The position numbers and the translations under genes are program-made. The notes under the pieces are model-generated. The model saw only the letters and a list, made by a program, of their open reading frames with translations, was not told the origin of the DNA and did no database searches. Source: Shouchella clausii (lineage in GTDB: Bacteria; Bacillota; Bacilli; Bacillales; Bacillaceae_D). Taken from it: a DNA stretch of 64,000 nt. Of the stretch, positions 5,476 through 54,047 are shown in pieces. The DNA lies in the NCBI RefSeq assembly GCF_001598215.1, contig NZ_BCXJ01000004.1, positions 310,001 through 374,000 on the forward strand, in the 5' to 3' direction. Within the stretch, counting starts at the first letter, position 1. The number at the start of each line of letters is the position of its first letter.

Positions 5476-5934
5476 CTATGTAGTTTTTTTGCATGATGTT
5501 AGTTTAGCAAGCATCCCCTCAGAAAAAGGGAGCGCTTCGCCTGTCTGTTTGTCAACTTGCACCATTGTTCCTCTCCCTGTCAAACAAATATCGGTGTTTC
5601 TTTTTGCGACATAATGAATGTCCAATGAAGAACGCCCGATCTTATCTACTTTTACCCCTACATGTAACGTATCCCCGTATTTGATTTGGGCAACATAGTT
5701 ACATTGCAAATCAGCAGCAACGACAATGGCATTACTGCTACTTGCGGCCCAATCTTCCATTAAGCCGCAAGACTCAAAAAATTCAAGCCTTGCGTGTTCA
5801 AAATAAATAAAGGCAGACGTATTATTCACATGGCCAAATGCATCTGTTTCCGAAAAGCGGACTTTGATTGGAACAAAAAATGTAAATGAGTTTTCCCATG
5901 CGCTTCTTTCATTGATATAAGCAGGCACTTTCAT
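5476..5934 (-). CDS. Hotdog-fold acyl-CoA thioesterase (YsmA-like)
   Basis: A 152-residue 4HBT-superfamily protein. The motif FSETDAFGHVNNTSAF near residue 30 contains the Asp-x-x-x-His-Val-Asn typical of 4-hydroxybenzoyl-CoA thioesterase-like enzymes. Such enzymes hydrolyse acyl-CoA thioesters; the substrate here is unknown. Its place between gerE and sdhB matches B. subtilis ysmA. The ATG follows AAAGGAG. It is monocistronic. Confidence 0.85.
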   Translation of the reverse strand: MKVPAYINERSAWENSFTFFVPIKVRFSETDAFGHVNNTSAFIYFEHARLEFFESCGLMEDWAASSSNAIVVAADLQCNYVAQIKYGDTLHVGVKVDKIGRSSLDIHYVAKRNTDICLTGRGTMVQVDKQTGEALPFSEGMLAKLTSCKKTT

Positions 5935-5980
5935 CGTTATTCGCTCCTTTTTTAATTAAATCTCAGCTTAATAGAAAATG

Positions 5981-6040
5981 TTTGGCAGACGGGAATAATG
6001 GAGAGAAAGAGGCAAAATAGAATGGGGTCACGTGAGCAGC
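5981..6040 (+). repeat. Dispersed intergenic repeat, copy B (short form)
   Basis: Shares with copy A (53341-53430) the blocks TTTG-CAGACG-G, AATAGAA-GGGG and GTGAGCA-CG in the same order, with the middle shortened. Matched by eye. It lies between the thioesterase gene and sdhB. Confidence 0.55.
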
Positions 6041-6055
6041 GTTTGCCTATAGTTT

Positions 6056-6080
6056 AACGAGGCTGCTTCGCAGCCTCGTT
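6056..6080 (-). terminator. Hairpin after sdhB
   Basis: AACGAGGCTGC-ttc-GCAGCCTCGTT, an 11-bp perfect stem shortly after the sdhB stop codon. The downstream T-tract is short. Confidence 0.65.
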
Positions 6081-28354: not shown

Positions 28355-28615
28355 ACAATAAAAAAAGCCTTCTACTCCCTAAAAAGGGACGAAAGCTCCG
28401 TGGTACCACCCTTCGTTTGCACTTGCTAAAAAAGTGCAACTTCATTGTCCATAACGGCTCTAAACCGGGAACATCCTTTGGAGATGCCAGCTCAAGAGTG
28501 AATTCGGCCCATCCTACCATAGAAACGCTTCCAGTCTTTGGCATTTCCTCCCTGAAAGGCGGTTTTGAGCTTACTACTCTCTATCAACGCTTTTTATCCT
28601 ATACAATTGCAATTG
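28355..28615 (-). promoter_or_regulatory. T-box riboswitch (Phe) controlling pheST
   Basis: The conserved T-box AGGGTGGTACCACGGAG lies at about 28398-28414 on the minus strand and is followed by a terminator hairpin (28360-28396) ending in seven T. Stem I carries an AGTA loop-E side and, opposite, GAA followed by TTC-A; the TTC at 28500-28502 is the likely specifier for phenylalanine. Uncharged tRNA-Phe would pair with the T-box and prevent termination. Confidence 0.93.
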
Positions 28616-32007: not shown

Positions 32008-32010
32008 TTA

Positions 32011-32163
32011 CACTGTCGACACATGCTTACATACGTTGTGTTTGCGCAGTTCTTTGTGCCGAAACAAGCGTCCGTGAGCAAGAAAATCACTGCTTATGGA
32101 ACGGCCGTTCTATTCACCACTTCCCTTTCCTCGTCTAGCATGTGTGATTGATGTTGCCGACAA
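32011..32163 (-). repeat. Dispersed intergenic repeat, copy C
   Basis: On the minus strand it reads TTGTCGGCAAC, then TAGACGAGG, GAAGTGGTGAATAGAACGG, GTTC, and ends CAACGTATGTAAGC. These blocks occur in the same order as in copy A (53300-53447). It fills the convergent gap between ysdB and the acetate symporter gene. Confidence 0.65.
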
Positions 32164-32177
32164 ATTGAAGTCTGCGT

Positions 32178-33704
32178 TTATTCCGCTTTTCGATAGCCAA
32201 TATTGGCCCGCACTTTCACTTCTGCGTATTTGGCATCATCCCGCTTTTTAGACAACAACGTCCCTACCACGCCGCCGATAAAGCCAATTGGAACAGAAAT
32301 AATTGCCGGATTCGTTAATGAAATAAGCGGTTCTGCTGTAATAAATGCATCGCCTGTCGGCGATAGGACATTTGGACTGATCGCAACGAGTATCAAAGCA
32401 GAGAACAAGCCTGACAACATCGCTGTTACGGCCCCAGCAGTGTTGAATCTCTTCCAGTAAATGGTATAAACAATGACAGGCAAGTTGGCGCTTGCCGCCA
32501 CACAGAAAGCAAGGGCAACAAGAAAGGCAACATTCATATTTTGTGCAAATAGCGCCAGCACAATCGATAGCCCTGCCACTGTAACCGAGGCAATTCGCGC
32601 GGCTACAACTTGTTGCTTCTCCGTAATTTTTCCTTTTTTAATGATTTGCCCATAAACATCATGGGCAAACGCCGAAGCGCCTGAAAGCACGAGCCCTGCT
32701 ACAACCGCTAGAATCGTGGCAAAAGCGACAGCAGCGACAAAGGACATAAACAAATCACCGCCAAGACGTTCTGCTAATAATGGAGCCGCCATATTTCCAG
32801 CTGGATTGGCAGCAATAATATCGGCAGAACCGACAAATGCAGCAGCACCGAATCCAAGGAAAATCGTTAGAATATAAAAGATTCCGACAATCCAAGTTGC
32901 AGTAACAACGGAACTACGTGCTGTCTTTGCATCCTTTACGGTAAAAAAGCGCATCAGAATATGTGGCAAGCCTGCCGTTCCTAAAACGAGAGCGAGCATG
33001 AGCGAAATGGAGTCAAGTGGAGCTCTCCCTTGCATTCCAGGATGCAAAAACCCTTCTTCTTGGGAAGCGCCAACAGAGGCAAACATGTCCAAAATGTTAA
33101 AGTTAAACCGGACCAACACCATGATCGAAATCGCCGCAGTCGCGACCATTAGCAATGTAGCTTTGACAATTTGCACCCAACTTGTCGCTGTCATTCCGCC
33201 AAACAACACATAAATGGTCATCATAACGCCTACTAACAGCACAGCGTATGTATATGGAATTTGAAACAACAATTGAATGAGCGCTCCAGCTCCAACCAAC
33301 TGGGCGATCATGTAGAAGATCACAATTGTAATCGTGCTCCCAGCAGCAACACCCCGGACTTTCCTCGCATCAAAACGAGAATGGATCATGTCGGCAAGCG
33401 TATATTTCCCTAAGTTCCGGAGTGGTTCTGCAACAACAAACATCACGACCAAGTAGGCAACTAAGTAGCCAATACTGTAAAAGAACCCGTCAAAGCCAAA
33501 CAAAGCAATGGCACCGGCTATCCCTAAAAACGAGGCTGCTGACAAGTAATCGCCTGCAATCGCAAGCCCGTTTTGCCAGCCAGTCAAACCGCCTCCAGCT
33601 GTATAAAATTCGCTTGCTGTCTTTGTCCGTTTCGCCGCATAGTAAGTGATAACAAGCGTCAACAGAACGATCGCCAGAAATAGAGAAATGACCGTAATGT
33701 TCAT
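32178..33704 (-). CDS. Sodium:solute symporter, acetate permease type (ActP/YwcA-like)
   Basis: A 508-residue transporter with about 13 membrane helices of the SSS family. FYTAGGGLTGWQNGLAIAGDYLSAASFLG near residues 33-62 and the length match cation/acetate symporters. The start overlaps the preceding DUF485 gene by four bases, the usual partner arrangement. The promoter carries a cre box, consistent with uptake of a secondary carbon source such as acetate. Other small carboxylates are possible substrates. Confidence 0.85.
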   Translation of the reverse strand: MNITVISLFLAIVLLTLVITYYAAKRTKTASEFYTAGGGLTGWQNGLAIAGDYLSAASFLGIAGAIALFGFDGFFYSIGYLVAYLVVMFVVAEPLRNLGKYTLADMIHSRFDARKVRGVAAGSTITIVIFYMIAQLVGAGALIQLLFQIPYTYAVLLVGVMMTIYVLFGGMTATSWVQIVKATLLMVATAAISIMVLVRFNFNILDMFASVGASQEEGFLHPGMQGRAPLDSISLMLALVLGTAGLPHILMRFFTVKDAKTARSSVVTATWIVGIFYILTIFLGFGAAAFVGSADIIAANPAGNMAAPLLAERLGGDLFMSFVAAVAFATILAVVAGLVLSGASAFAHDVYGQIIKKGKITEKQQVVAARIASVTVAGLSIVLALFAQNMNVAFLVALAFCVAASANLPVIVYTIYWKRFNTAGAVTAMLSGLFSALILVAISPNVLSPTGDAFITAEPLISLTNPAIISVPIGFIGGVVGTLLSKKRDDAKYAEVKVRANIGYRKAE

Positions 33705-35372: not shown

Positions 35373-35555
35373 GAGCCACCTCCAGTGGATTTTGTGATGC
35401 AGCTAAAGCAATTTACGCGTCTAAACGTGAAAAAAGTGTGGACGCACGGCACCCACACTTAATCAGCATTTTAACAAACTGACGGTTTCTAACCTGGCAA
35501 CCAATGTCGTACAGGTGAGAAGCGGGCGCTTCTTCTTGCTTTATTAACTAACACA
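35373..35555 (-). promoter_or_regulatory. L20-type leader of infC-rpmI-rplT
   Basis: An untranslated leader of roughly 180 nt with a terminator hairpin AAGTGTGG (35453-35460 side) / CCACACTT followed by TTTTTT (35430-35460). It matches the position and layout of the L20-controlled attenuator of B. subtilis; the competing antiterminator was not drawn in detail. Confidence 0.8.
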
Positions 35556-47831: not shown

Positions 47832-47926
47832 TGTTGTACCCCCAAGCACAAGTAATCTAGTATTCTTTATACATCGTACCATAGTTATCCTTAAACATCC
47901 AATGAGCAAGCCCTGCTCTCAAACCT

Positions 47927-48033
47927 CACATACGTCGTCGTTCGCCTAGCTTATGACCCCTGACTATCCGCATTTCCGCTCGCCTGACAAGCATCCTCTC
48001 CCCGCCTGAGCGATGTTGTCGAAAAATCGACAA
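47927..48033 (-). repeat. Dispersed intergenic repeat, copy D
   Basis: On the minus strand: the hairpin TTGTCGA-ttt-TCGACAA, then CTTGTCAGGCGAG, ATGCGGATAG, GGGGTCAT and GCGAACGACGACGTATGTGAG. All blocks occur in the order seen in copy A. It fills the gap between dnaI and mqnC. Confidence 0.68.
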
Positions 48034-48036
48034 TAT

Positions 48037-48062
48037 AAAAACCGGCGCTACATACCGCGCCG
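48037..48062 (-). terminator. Terminator overlapping the dnaI stop
   Basis: CGGCGC pairs with GCGCCG, followed by GTTTTTA on the minus strand. The last codons and stop of dnaI lie inside the hairpin. Confidence 0.75.
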
Positions 48063-50466: not shown

Positions 50467-50922
50467 TTAATTTTTATTCATTAACTCAGTCAATTCTTTT
50501 ATAAATACATTGATGTCTTTAAACTGTCTGTATACAGAAGCAAAACGAACGTAAGCAACATCGTCGACTTTCGCTAGCCGTTCCATGACGAGTTCGCCCA
50601 CATCCTGGCTTCGCACTTCTTGTTTCCCTTCATTGCGAAGCGTGCGCTCCACGTCCAATACCATTTCTTCAAGCGTTTCAAGGGGAACGGGGCGTTTCTC
50701 ACAGGCACGCACAAGGCCGCGTAGCATTTTATCGCTGCTAAATTCCTCCCGCATACCGTCTTTTTTAATAATGAGAAGAGGCCGTTCTTCCACTGTCTCA
50801 TAAGTGGTAAAACGCTGTAAACATTTTTCGCACTCCCGCCTCCGTTTGATCGAGCGGCTTTCATCACTTGGCCTGGAATCGAGCACTCTTGTTCCGTTAT
50901 GCTGACATTTGGGACAGCGCAT
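50467..50922 (-). CDS. nrdR: Transcriptional repressor NrdR
   Basis: A 151-residue zinc-ribbon plus ATP-cone repressor of ribonucleotide reductase genes that senses dATP/ATP. Zinc ligands are in MRCPKC and CEKC; the ATP-cone begins near residue 49 ([13 protein letters not shown]). ATG 50922 gives the normal N-terminus; the frame to 50937 adds four residues before it. Confidence 0.97.
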
Positions 50923-52126: not shown

Positions 52127-53161
52127 TTAGGATGCAGAATGGATTTCTTCTTTCACGGACATCTGCGCTGCGACATGATTCATTAAATCAACCACTCTGC
52201 AAGAATAGCCCCATTCATTGTCATACCAAGCAAGGACTTTTGCCTGACGATTGTTTAAAACTATCGTTGATTGACCATCTACAACCGCCGATTGTTCCTC
52301 GCCATTAAAGTCGATTGAAACGAGTGGTTCATCTGTAATCCCTAAGAAGCCTTTAAGCGTCCCTCGTGAAGCTTCCCAAAAGGCATTGTTAATTGCTTCT
52401 GCAGTTGTTTCTGTTTTTAAATTCACAACTAAATCAACTAACGAAACATTTGGCGTTGGCACACGAAGCGCCATTCCTGTTAGTTTGCCTTCCAAATTCG
52501 GCAACACTTTCGAGATTGCCTTAGCCGCTCCAGTCGATGTCGGGATGATGGACTGTCCACATGCCCGAGCTCGCCGCAAATCTTTATGAGGGTTGTCAAT
52601 GTTTTTCTGGTCATTCGTATAAGAATGCACCGTTGTCATCATTCCTGATTCAATTCCAAACCTTTCGTCGAGGACTTTCGCAACTGGGGCTAGGCAATTG
52701 GTTGTGCATGAGGCATTCGAGAGAATGTGATCTTCCTGTGGATTGTAGTCGCTTTCATTTACACCGACGACAATCGTTGCATCCTCTCCCTTTGCCGGAG
52801 CGGTAATGATCACTTTTTTCGCCCCTGCTTGCAAATGAGCACCAGCCGCTTCTTTTGTTTTAAATTTGCCGGTTGCTTCAATGACAATATCAATCCCCAA
52901 CTGTTCCCAAGGCAAATGCCGTGGATCCCGTTCAGCAAGCAATTCAATCTTTTTTCCATTTACGAATAACTGCCCATCTTTCGCATAGACATCGGCCATG
53001 AATGGCCCATGAATGGAATCGTATTTGATTAAATGAGCTAATGTGTCTGCTGGGTAAGAAGCATTGATCGCAGTAATATCAACTTTCCCTTCTAGAAAAG
53101 CTTTTCGAAACACCATTCGACCGATTCGTCCAAACCCGTTGATCGCCATTTTCACATTCAT
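52127..53161 (-). CDS. gapB: NADP-dependent glyceraldehyde-3-phosphate dehydrogenase (gluconeogenic)
   Basis: A 344-residue enzyme. The Rossmann start INGFGRIGR, catalytic Cys in SNASCTTNCLAP, HSYTNDQ and the C-terminal WYDNEWGYSCR are standard GAPDH. The N-terminal INASYPADTLAHLIKYDSIHG and the location next to speD identify the GapB type, which works with NADP(H) in gluconeogenesis and is repressed by CcpN on sugars in B. subtilis. No CcpN site was identified. Confidence 0.95.
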   Translation of the reverse strand: MNVKMAINGFGRIGRMVFRKAFLEGKVDITAINASYPADTLAHLIKYDSIHGPFMADVYAKDGQLFVNGKKIELLAERDPRHLPWEQLGIDIVIEATGKFKTKEAAGAHLQAGAKKVIITAPAKGEDATIVVGVNESDYNPQEDHILSNASCTTNCLAPVAKVLDERFGIESGMMTTVHSYTNDQKNIDNPHKDLRRARACGQSIIPTSTGAAKAISKVLPNLEGKLTGMALRVPTPNVSLVDLVVNLKTETTAEAINNAFWEASRGTLKGFLGITDEPLVSIDFNGEEQSAVVDGQSTIVLNNRQAKVLAWYDNEWGYSCRVVDLMNHVAAQMSVKEEIHSAS

Positions 53162-53264: not shown

Positions 53265-53297
53265 ACAAAAAAGACCGCCTATTCGTAGGCGGTCTTA
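53265..53297 (-). terminator. Distal terminator hairpin of coaE
   Basis: GACCGCCTA-ttcg-TAGGCGGTC with a six-base T-tract on the minus strand. It is a near-perfect copy of the hairpin at 53448-53472, which lies at the coaE stop codon. Confidence 0.85.
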
Positions 53298-53299
53298 AG

Positions 53300-53447
53300 T
53301 TGTTGACAGAGTCGACAACTGTGCAGACTGAAAGAAAGCGTTTGTCAGACGAGGCGCGAAACCGAGTGAAGATGCGAATAGAACGGGGGTTCATGCGCGT
53401 ATGAACGAGGTGAGCAACGACGTATGCGAGCGCTTGTCTTCAGTCGT
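53300..53447 (+). repeat. Dispersed intergenic repeat, copy A (reference copy)
   Basis: About 148 bp of structured sequence. It starts with the dyad GTTGACAGAGTCGACAAC, then GACTGAA (53325 region) which is complementary to TTCAGTC near 53440, and between them the core 53341-53430: TTTGTCAGACGAGG, GTGAAGATGCGAATAGAACGG, the hairpin GTTCAT-gcgcgt-ATGAAC and GTGAGCAACGACGTATGCGAG. The whole is bracketed by the two 25-bp coaE hairpin copies. No ORF of interest. Confidence 0.7.
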
Positions 53448-53472
53448 GACCGCCTATTCGTGGGCGGTCTTA
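53448..53472 (-). repeat. Proximal 25-bp hairpin copy at the coaE stop
   Basis: GACCGCCTATTCGTGGGCGG and the following TCTTA repeat the sequence at 53273-53297 with one mismatch in 25. The coaE stop codon TAG (53454-53456) lies inside it. It lacks a T-tract, so the distal copy is the working terminator. Confidence 0.85.
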
Positions 53473-54047
53473 GCCAACGCATTGTCTACTTGTCGATAGG
53501 TGTTTTCCTTCGATCCATTATTGTCTATCAACACGTCGGCCTGTGCTTTTTTAGCTGTTAATGGCATTTGCGCAGCAATTCGTTGTTTTGCCTCTGTTTC
53601 TGTTAAGCCGTCTCGCTCAATCAAACGCTGAAGCTGAGTCGCTTCGTCTACATAAACGAGCCAAACTTGGTTGACCATATGAAACAAGTTGCTTTCGTAT
53701 AACAAGGGAATATCGAGAACAACTCGAGTGTAGCCCCTTTGTTCGTACAGATCGGCCTGTTTTTTCATCAATTGGCGTACAGCTGGATGAACGATTTGAT
53801 TCAACTGCATCCTTTTTTGTTCATCGCCAAAAATGATCGCCCCTAACTGTTTTCGATCTAACTTGCCGTCAGCCTGGAGGACGTTTTGGCCAAATGTCGC
53901 GACGATTTGGGCAAGCGCCGGCTCGCCAGGCTCTACAACCTGACGTGCAAGTTTATCTGCATCAACAACCGGAATGCCTCGTTTCTCCAAATAGGACGCC
54001 ACAAGCGATTTCCCGCTGGCAATCCCGCCAGTTAACCCAACTCTCAT
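53454..54047 (-). CDS. coaE: Dephospho-CoA kinase
   Basis: A 197-residue P-loop kinase for the last step of CoA synthesis. Walker A GGIASGKS at residue 7, DADKLARQVVEPG, and the lid/base region HPAVRQLM are clear. It is last in polA-mutM-ytaF-coaE, 15 bp after ytaF. Confidence 0.95.
   Translation of the reverse strand: MRVGLTGGIASGKSLVASYLEKRGIPVVDADKLARQVVEPGEPALAQIVATFGQNVLQADGKLDRKQLGAIIFGDEQKRMQLNQIVHPAVRQLMKKQADLYEQRGYTRVVLDIPLLYESNLFHMVNQVWLVYVDEATQLQRLIERDGLTETEAKQRIAAQMPLTAKKAQADVLIDNNGSKENTYRQVDNALAKTAHE

Follow-up and report, generated by a model that had tools for sequence, protein, structure and literature searches.

What is the structured element that fills the gap between coaE and gapB in Shouchella clausii, and how did it come to be there? 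In the 64,000-nucleotide stretch of DNA analysed here (the window), a preliminary description had marked this gap as holding the reference copy of a dispersed intergenic repeat, which it could match to no repeat that it could name and which it proposed to be either a non-autonomous mobile element or a structured RNA.

To establish how widely the repeat is dispersed, the host genome was searched with blastn, which returned 47 matching pieces at 41 sites (E ≤ 1e-3), and with a covariance model, which gave 102 matches at E ≤ 1e-3; the latter count comes from the scoring of 150 of 1478 first-look candidates, and the true number may be higher. Copies were thus far from few, they aligned better than expected by chance, and the sequence is a dispersed repeat as proposed. 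Within the window, only 53298-53447 is intact. The claim that three other gaps of the window hold copies, in both orientations, proved correct, though all three are decayed and weak, as judged by covariance models R1 (built from 46 full-length copies) and R2 and by blastn with 65 query copies:

5933..6057, + strand: decayed copy, E 0.059 (R1) and 0.034 (R2), best blastn E 5e-5 among the matches listed; a hairpin follows, by sight
32008..32178, − strand: decayed copy, E 0.64 (R1) and 0.054 (R2), best blastn E 6e-4 among the matches listed
47908..48037, − strand: decayed copy, E 0.11 (R1), unlisted by R2 at E ≤ 1, best blastn E 2.5e-8 among the matches listed

A fourth R1 match in the window (50530-50607, E 0.96) was taken as chance. 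Another intact copy lies ∼240 bases upstream of the window start (C4:310001), at C4:309608-309760 of the host genome (G000).

Outside the host, an exact 20-mer of the repeat hit 45 stretches of named genomes: Shouchella tritolerans accounted for 32 and S. rhizosphaerae for 11, and the remaining two, in unrelated MAGs, were taken as chance. Host loci were mostly 98-100% identical to the aligned S. tritolerans loci, with a few at 95-97%. Among 60 genomes including the host, blastn found matches in seven, i.e. the host, three genomes of the same genus (G005, G008 and G010; 14 scored copies each) and, more weakly, G009, G015 and G056. When 299 genomes of the order were searched with R1 at E ≤ 1e-5, a ∼125-nt hairpin core was detected in 38, the host among them, representing 21 of 116 genera, and blastn of plasmid and phage collections with the window element and the L296 version revealed no copy.

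At the coaE-gapB locus itself, the core blocks were found in the sequence as claimed, and so were the TCGACAA dyad and the GACTGAA/TTCAGTC pair. The element placed at 53300-53447 is likewise real, with slightly displaced boundaries: its true span is 53298-53447 (150 bp). Absent from the preliminary description were its link to IS1182 and its flanks, at 53273-53297 and 53448-53472, where the same terminator hairpin of 25 bp is present on either side. The features of the locus are as follows (gene names from the preliminary description, genes from the list of open reading frames):

52127..53161, − strand: gapB
53273..53297: left target copy, a stem-loop of 25 bp (GACCGCCTATTCGTAGGCGGTCTTA) with an A-tract before it (− strand terminator); repeated directly at 53448-53472, with identity at 24 of 25 positions
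53298..53447, + strand: mobile element, 150 bp (family consensus ∼154 bp); covariance model match 53296-53449, 158.9 bits
53298..53320, + strand: left end, a small hairpin (AGTTGTTGACAGAGTCGACAACT) with the left terminal repeat inside (family consensus GAGGTTGTCGACAAAGTCGATAACC)
53324..53447, + strand: core, a single long imperfect hairpin opening with CAGACTG and closing with CAGTCG, apical GTTCAT/ATGAAC; R2 match 53324-53449
53428..53447, + strand: right end, its reverse complement corresponding to the family right terminal repeat CAGACTGTAGACAAACGC
53448..53472: right target stem-loop copy, which also codes the last codons and the stop of coaE (KTAHE-stop)
53454..54047, − strand: coaE, its stop within the duplicated hairpin

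The direct repeat reads GACCGCCTATTCGT(A/G)GGCGGTCTTA. Because the right copy holds the end of coaE with its stop, while the left copy adjoins the A-tract, which when read on the − strand forms the T-tract of the terminator, the insertion spared both the coaE frame and a complete terminator. RNA folding of 53326-53449 gave −47.2 kcal/mol (z −4.60).

The same arrangement was seen in aligned copies from other sites, in which the sequence left of the element recurred on its right, differed from site to site and constituted a terminator-like stem-loop. We located 112 copies in four genomes (59 in the host, 20 each in G005 and G010, 13 in S. rhizosphaerae); 38 had no recognisable end and were left out, and the 74 with both ends recognised formed a full-length set, in which the element mostly measured 152-156 bp. 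The flanking direct repeat exceeded the maximum of 1456 mispaired flank controls in 53 of these 74 copies and the 99th percentile in 64, with 10 showing no direct repeat above that percentile; these counts are not all independent, as some insertions are common to species (L012/L202, L023/L209, L031/L215, L015/L055). The 53 repeats were 20-34 bp long, and all but one (52/53) can form a hairpin of six or more pairs; 36 are followed by a T-rich stretch and 32 have an A-rich one before them. Their length follows that of the hairpin because they end at the hairpin base. As for other genera, 16 of 40 copies from 27 genomes scored above all 1556 mispaired controls, and 22 lay above and 18 below the 99th percentile.

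Orthologous sites offered a direct comparison with the state before insertion. The host insertion at C2:650899-651053 corresponds to a single hairpin in G060, a genome of the same species whose flanks are 99.5 and 99.7% identical; G010 also has a single hairpin here and G008 is filled, a mixed pattern that could stem from separate insertion events, precise loss or gene flow. At C1:794501-794655, G060 shares the host insertion, while G008 and G010 are empty with one hairpin. The coaE-gapB site is filled in G060 and G008, carries an internally deleted copy in G010, and consists of one terminator without the element in G005 and G009. The stem-loop thus occurs once in empty and twice in filled sites. 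We consider it extremely unlikely that the flanking hairpins are repeats carried by the element, or products of terminator recombination, instead of target duplications: although some copies have one flanking hairpin only, the hairpins are site-specific, mispaired controls do not match, and empty sites with one copy contradict this explanation.

Several variant arrangements were noted among the copies. One subfamily of ∼178-193 bp has an enlarged apical part (GGTTTTCTTGCGCATGAAACGACAGTTTC and variants; L034, L036, L039, L041, L043, L046, L047 and L097). Tandem core copies were found in G111 (C38:2979-3519, period near 130 bp) and at L038, where, at a guess, the element may have inserted into its own hairpin. 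At L031 and L215, the apparent right end of another copy precedes the left hairpin copy (by sight), which seems to be a nested insertion in which one terminator was hit twice. Copies L098 and L103 are truncated where the element and the duplicated terminator share GAGTGCAGC or similar (by sight); this looks like deletion by short homology.

Which enzyme could make such insertions? On seeing the hairpin duplication we considered a group IIC intron, and Rfam shows no intron at the element. REP elements and Cas1-type insertion were considered as well; to our knowledge, whole-hairpin duplication is not expected of REP or REPIN sequences, and the terminal repeats pointed to IS1182 instead. Specifically, one IS1182-family subgroup has CAGnnTGTnGACAAA as its terminal repeat, and the ends of the element conform to it. 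Inward, the sequence of the right end is CAGACTGTAGACAAA; the left end is CAGTGTGTAGACAAA in the G056 version and departs from CAG in Shouchella (GAGGTTGTCGACAAA). Counts of the pattern CAGNNTGTNGACAAA were 46 in the host and 20 in G056, as compared with 0 and 1 for the reversed control. In a search of five genomes with Pfam DDE_Tnp_1_6, G010 proved to contain elements of 1536-1537 bp with ends CAGACCGTAGACAAA (or CAGAGCGTAGACAAA) and CAGCCTGTCGACAAA; their transposase scored 482.6 bits as an NCBIfam IS1182 equivalog, above the cut-off of 270. By sight, the G010 IS also has hairpins just within both ends.

Four of the five G010 elements lie between identical hairpins of 21-28 bp, and the one copy examined in G056 has a hairpin repeat of 34 bp. 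In G045 (5/6) and G289 (2/2) the repeated hairpins measured 21-26 bp; hairpin repeats were also found in two of six cases in G211, where the script boundaries are unreliable. Five plasmid relatives (from Sutcliffiella, two Peribacillus and Exiguobacterium, and ISEfa7 of Enterococcus) have the same end type; two show the whole-hairpin repeat and the other three have unlike, hairpin-like flanks (by sight). Taken together, of the 25 IS1182 copies whose ends are of the CAG type or near it, 16 showed whole-hairpin duplication and nine did not. The CAGnnTGTnGACAAA subgroup (ISEfa7 included, by plasmid annotation) hence resembles our element in terminal repeats, hairpin target and whole-hairpin duplication, though the ISEfa7 copy itself has unlike flanks; it differs in being ∼1.5 kb long, in encoding a transposase, and in the ∼125-nt core, which was not found inside any IS of the 23 IS1182-bearing loci scanned. 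That scan gave one 70-bp core piece beside or at an IS edge and two matches at E 0.23 and 0.25, and the match between element and IS ends spans only ∼15-20 bp. In G047, IS1182 copies with GGGACAAAA-type ends (L311-L316) had no direct repeat in six of six cases, perhaps reflecting a hairpin-replacing mode as in IS1272.

The draft assemblies of the host and G060 yielded no intact transposase of the CAGnnTGTnGACAAA-ended type: P0001 matched at amino acids 477-516, past the IS end, and by one weak piece with stops in G060, and IS1182 matches stayed below the cut-off (best 2.5e-13 and 9.9e-12). Nor was a longer element combining a transposase with the Shouchella left end seen among the regions of the host that were read; this end matched 46 sites at ≤ 3 mismatches, and the 20 of them that lay in regions not yet covered, read over 190 bases from the end, proved to be variant, decayed or truncated copies or to match by chance. 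Though neither genome shows an intact transposase, the two differ at one insertion. Likewise, carriers and non-carriers were not clearly separated by the presence of IS1182 above the cut-off (8 of 22 versus 5 of 23 genomes; non-carriers being genomes without a match in the 60-genome blastn, 20 of the 23 also lacking an R1 match in the order-wide search), so that partners would come and go, or the element would use several.

Its ∼154 bp, lack of a transposase gene, 102 dispersed matches, terminal inverted repeats related to an autonomous element, and target duplication with empty sites place the element among the MITEs. It is not an IS of the IS1182 family, being too short for a DDE transposase, which sits in the separate ∼1.5-kb elements; nor is it a case of IS1272-type stem-loop replacement, as the hairpin is doubled, not removed. 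For the first of the two proposals, a non-autonomous mobile element, good support comes from target duplications, empty sites, terminal repeats and relatives that encode a transposase and share the ends and the target. The second is not its opposite: mobile element and structured RNA are not mutually exclusive here. We are highly confident in reading the element as a MITE that transposases of the CAGnnTGTnGACAAA-ended IS1182 subgroup would mobilise in trans, with a core that is probably a folded one-strand molecule.

Passages of two papers describe IS1272, a member of the IS1182 family, as targeting stem-loops and terminators without sequence preference, and as deleting or replacing the hairpin, in part or completely, with the target left unduplicated (PMC4923244; PMC5678879). 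The hairpin target is thus a likeness, whereas IS1272 removes the hairpin that our element doubles. One of these passages also draws, as hypothetical pathway b for IS1272, a joining at the 5′ feet of the stem-loop that may duplicate it whole (PMC5678879), and the anatomy of the element fits this pathway as given there. The element inserts at terminator-like stem-loops and leaves one complete hairpin copy on either side, probably through cruciform extrusion of the target and a joining chemistry of this kind. With both copies complete, and hence a complete terminator kept on both outer sides, each insertion would be nearly harmless and would place the element in the 3′ untranslated part of the neighbouring transcript. 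Less certainly, the ∼125-nt core may be kept as a one-strand folded molecule, most likely RNA, that aids movement or tolerance. No preferred orientation to neighbouring genes was shown by the 55 copies scored (+ only, 15; − only, 7; convergent, 27; divergent, 6), 19 of the 74 being omitted for short frames.

Cross-genus covariation and one-strand folding lend indirect support to a structured RNA. In alignment A2 (38 sequences across genera, some genomes giving at least two rows), 29 pairs had 97.3% of their cells paired, and 15 pairs had changed on both sides, a number reached by none of 500 shuffles (mean 9.6), which as controls leave shared ancestry in. The covariation score was 0.328 compared with 0.140 in shuffles, and both paired cells and covariation collapsed once partners were slid. 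Within Shouchella, double changes affected 9 of 40 pairs (4.8 in shuffles; 2/500 as many), and further pair types were no commoner than in shuffles (191/500). As to the strand, wobble cells outnumbered A.C cells on the + strand, on which the structure itself was predicted (95 versus 11 in A2, 172 versus 13 in A1). Less biased tests pointed the same way: single-sequence folding was stronger on the + strand in 38/38 and 46/46 sequences. Relative to shuffles, z was −6.2 on the + and −4.6 on the − strand in A2 (lower on + in 36/38); for A1, of whose 46 rows 12 were used, the values were −5.5 and −3.3. The alignment energies were −21.9 and −8.1 in A2, and −29.4 and −8.2 in A1. Such a preference for one strand would most simply be accounted for by RNA.

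Alternatively, though we regard this as rather unlikely, the transposase may read a hairpin of single-stranded DNA, as in IS200/IS605, and the bias would stem from that. G.T is a well tolerated mismatch in DNA, and one-strand folding is for that reason no proof of RNA; the hairpins inside the ends of the G010 IS would suit this explanation too. However, RNA folding explains the wobble pairs at least equally well, and a two-sided duplication means that both target strands are cut, unlike in IS200/IS605.

Rfam 15 has no family above gathering at the element, and 17 loci including other genera gave two matches, both below gathering, which were taken as chance. Our search of open-licence papers also found no description of the element. 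Elsewhere in the window, Rfam recognised a T-box leader (28382-28596, − strand; RF00230, 100.2 bits) and a ribosomal protein L20 leader (35424-35543, − strand; RF00558, 80.9 bits). Collectively, the covariation, strand bias, cross-genus recurrence and lack of an Rfam family suggest selection on an RNA, whose function would be putative.

On which copies would this selection act? Comparing copies at different sites, 198 pairs were broken where 420 were expected (60 comparisons). Same-site orthologues gave 3 broken versus 2.6 expected in a small set (four pairs, six differences), and 9 versus 14.9 in a larger set, with 3 of 400 simulations as low; the latter comprised 11 of 13 comparisons, one internally deleted and one enlarged copy being omitted and one locus being used twice. 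Resident copies diverged by 2.9%, compared with 4.0% for flanks that include coding sequence, and were lower in 7 of 13. We read this as selection acting mainly on copies that still move, with constraint afterwards weak at most. It also bears on whether the element is a host RNA regulator or processing signal of 3′ untranslated regions that spread by duplication, its mobility being incidental. Covariation, one-strand folding and the larger orthologue set would agree with such a role; nevertheless we deem it improbable, given the precise target duplications and polymorphic empty sites, the near flank-like divergence of resident copies, the smaller set without constraint, and the occurrence of truncated or internally deleted copies. 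Returning to the MITE with a folded core, we tentatively entertain the possibility that it is an order-wide mobile structured RNA, whose ∼125-nt core is transcribed and in which the RNA, not only the DNA ends, is selected, to guide or assemble the borrowed IS1182 transposase or to shield the host message.

Generally, MITEs have little in common beyond their ends, and an internal fold kept over 21 genera is unusual for one. Among known repeats of related bacteria, bcr1 of the Bacillus cereus group is intergenic, mobile and structured, and duplicates 5 bp (TTTAT). It resembles our element in size class and is set apart, by description, by this TTTAT duplication as opposed to hairpins of 20-34 bp. 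In a table of PMC2267715, bcr1 is given as 147 or 167 bp, and Bhal-1 of Bacillus halodurans as a stem-loop repeat family of 74 bp and 36 copies. Bhal-1, compared by description only, is like our element a family of stem-loop repeats and could be part of the same family. Pneumococcal BOX, RUP and SPRITE and other bacterial MITEs are likewise short, intergenic, structured repeats; they differ in that the passages of PMC10969869 used here do not describe whole-terminator duplication, and IS1182 is not mentioned in its main text. The parts are known and their combination is new: a MITE of the IS1182 kind, an unusual mode of duplication and a conserved core.

These insertions provide natural evidence for the duplication of a whole stem-loop, which had been drawn only as a possibility for IS1272, and indicate that one transposase family can have two opposite outcomes, a hairpin doubled or a hairpin lost. 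The preference for such targets explains how a parasite can multiply and yet leave genes whole, as at coaE, whose stop lies inside the hairpin and which is still intact. The core is a candidate RNA family absent from Rfam 15, and this putative RNA is what would lift the element well above the ordinary; if true, it would allow a passenger that lacks a transposase to persist in at least 21 genera. The system allows a direct test, in a harmless genus, of structure-guided transposition.
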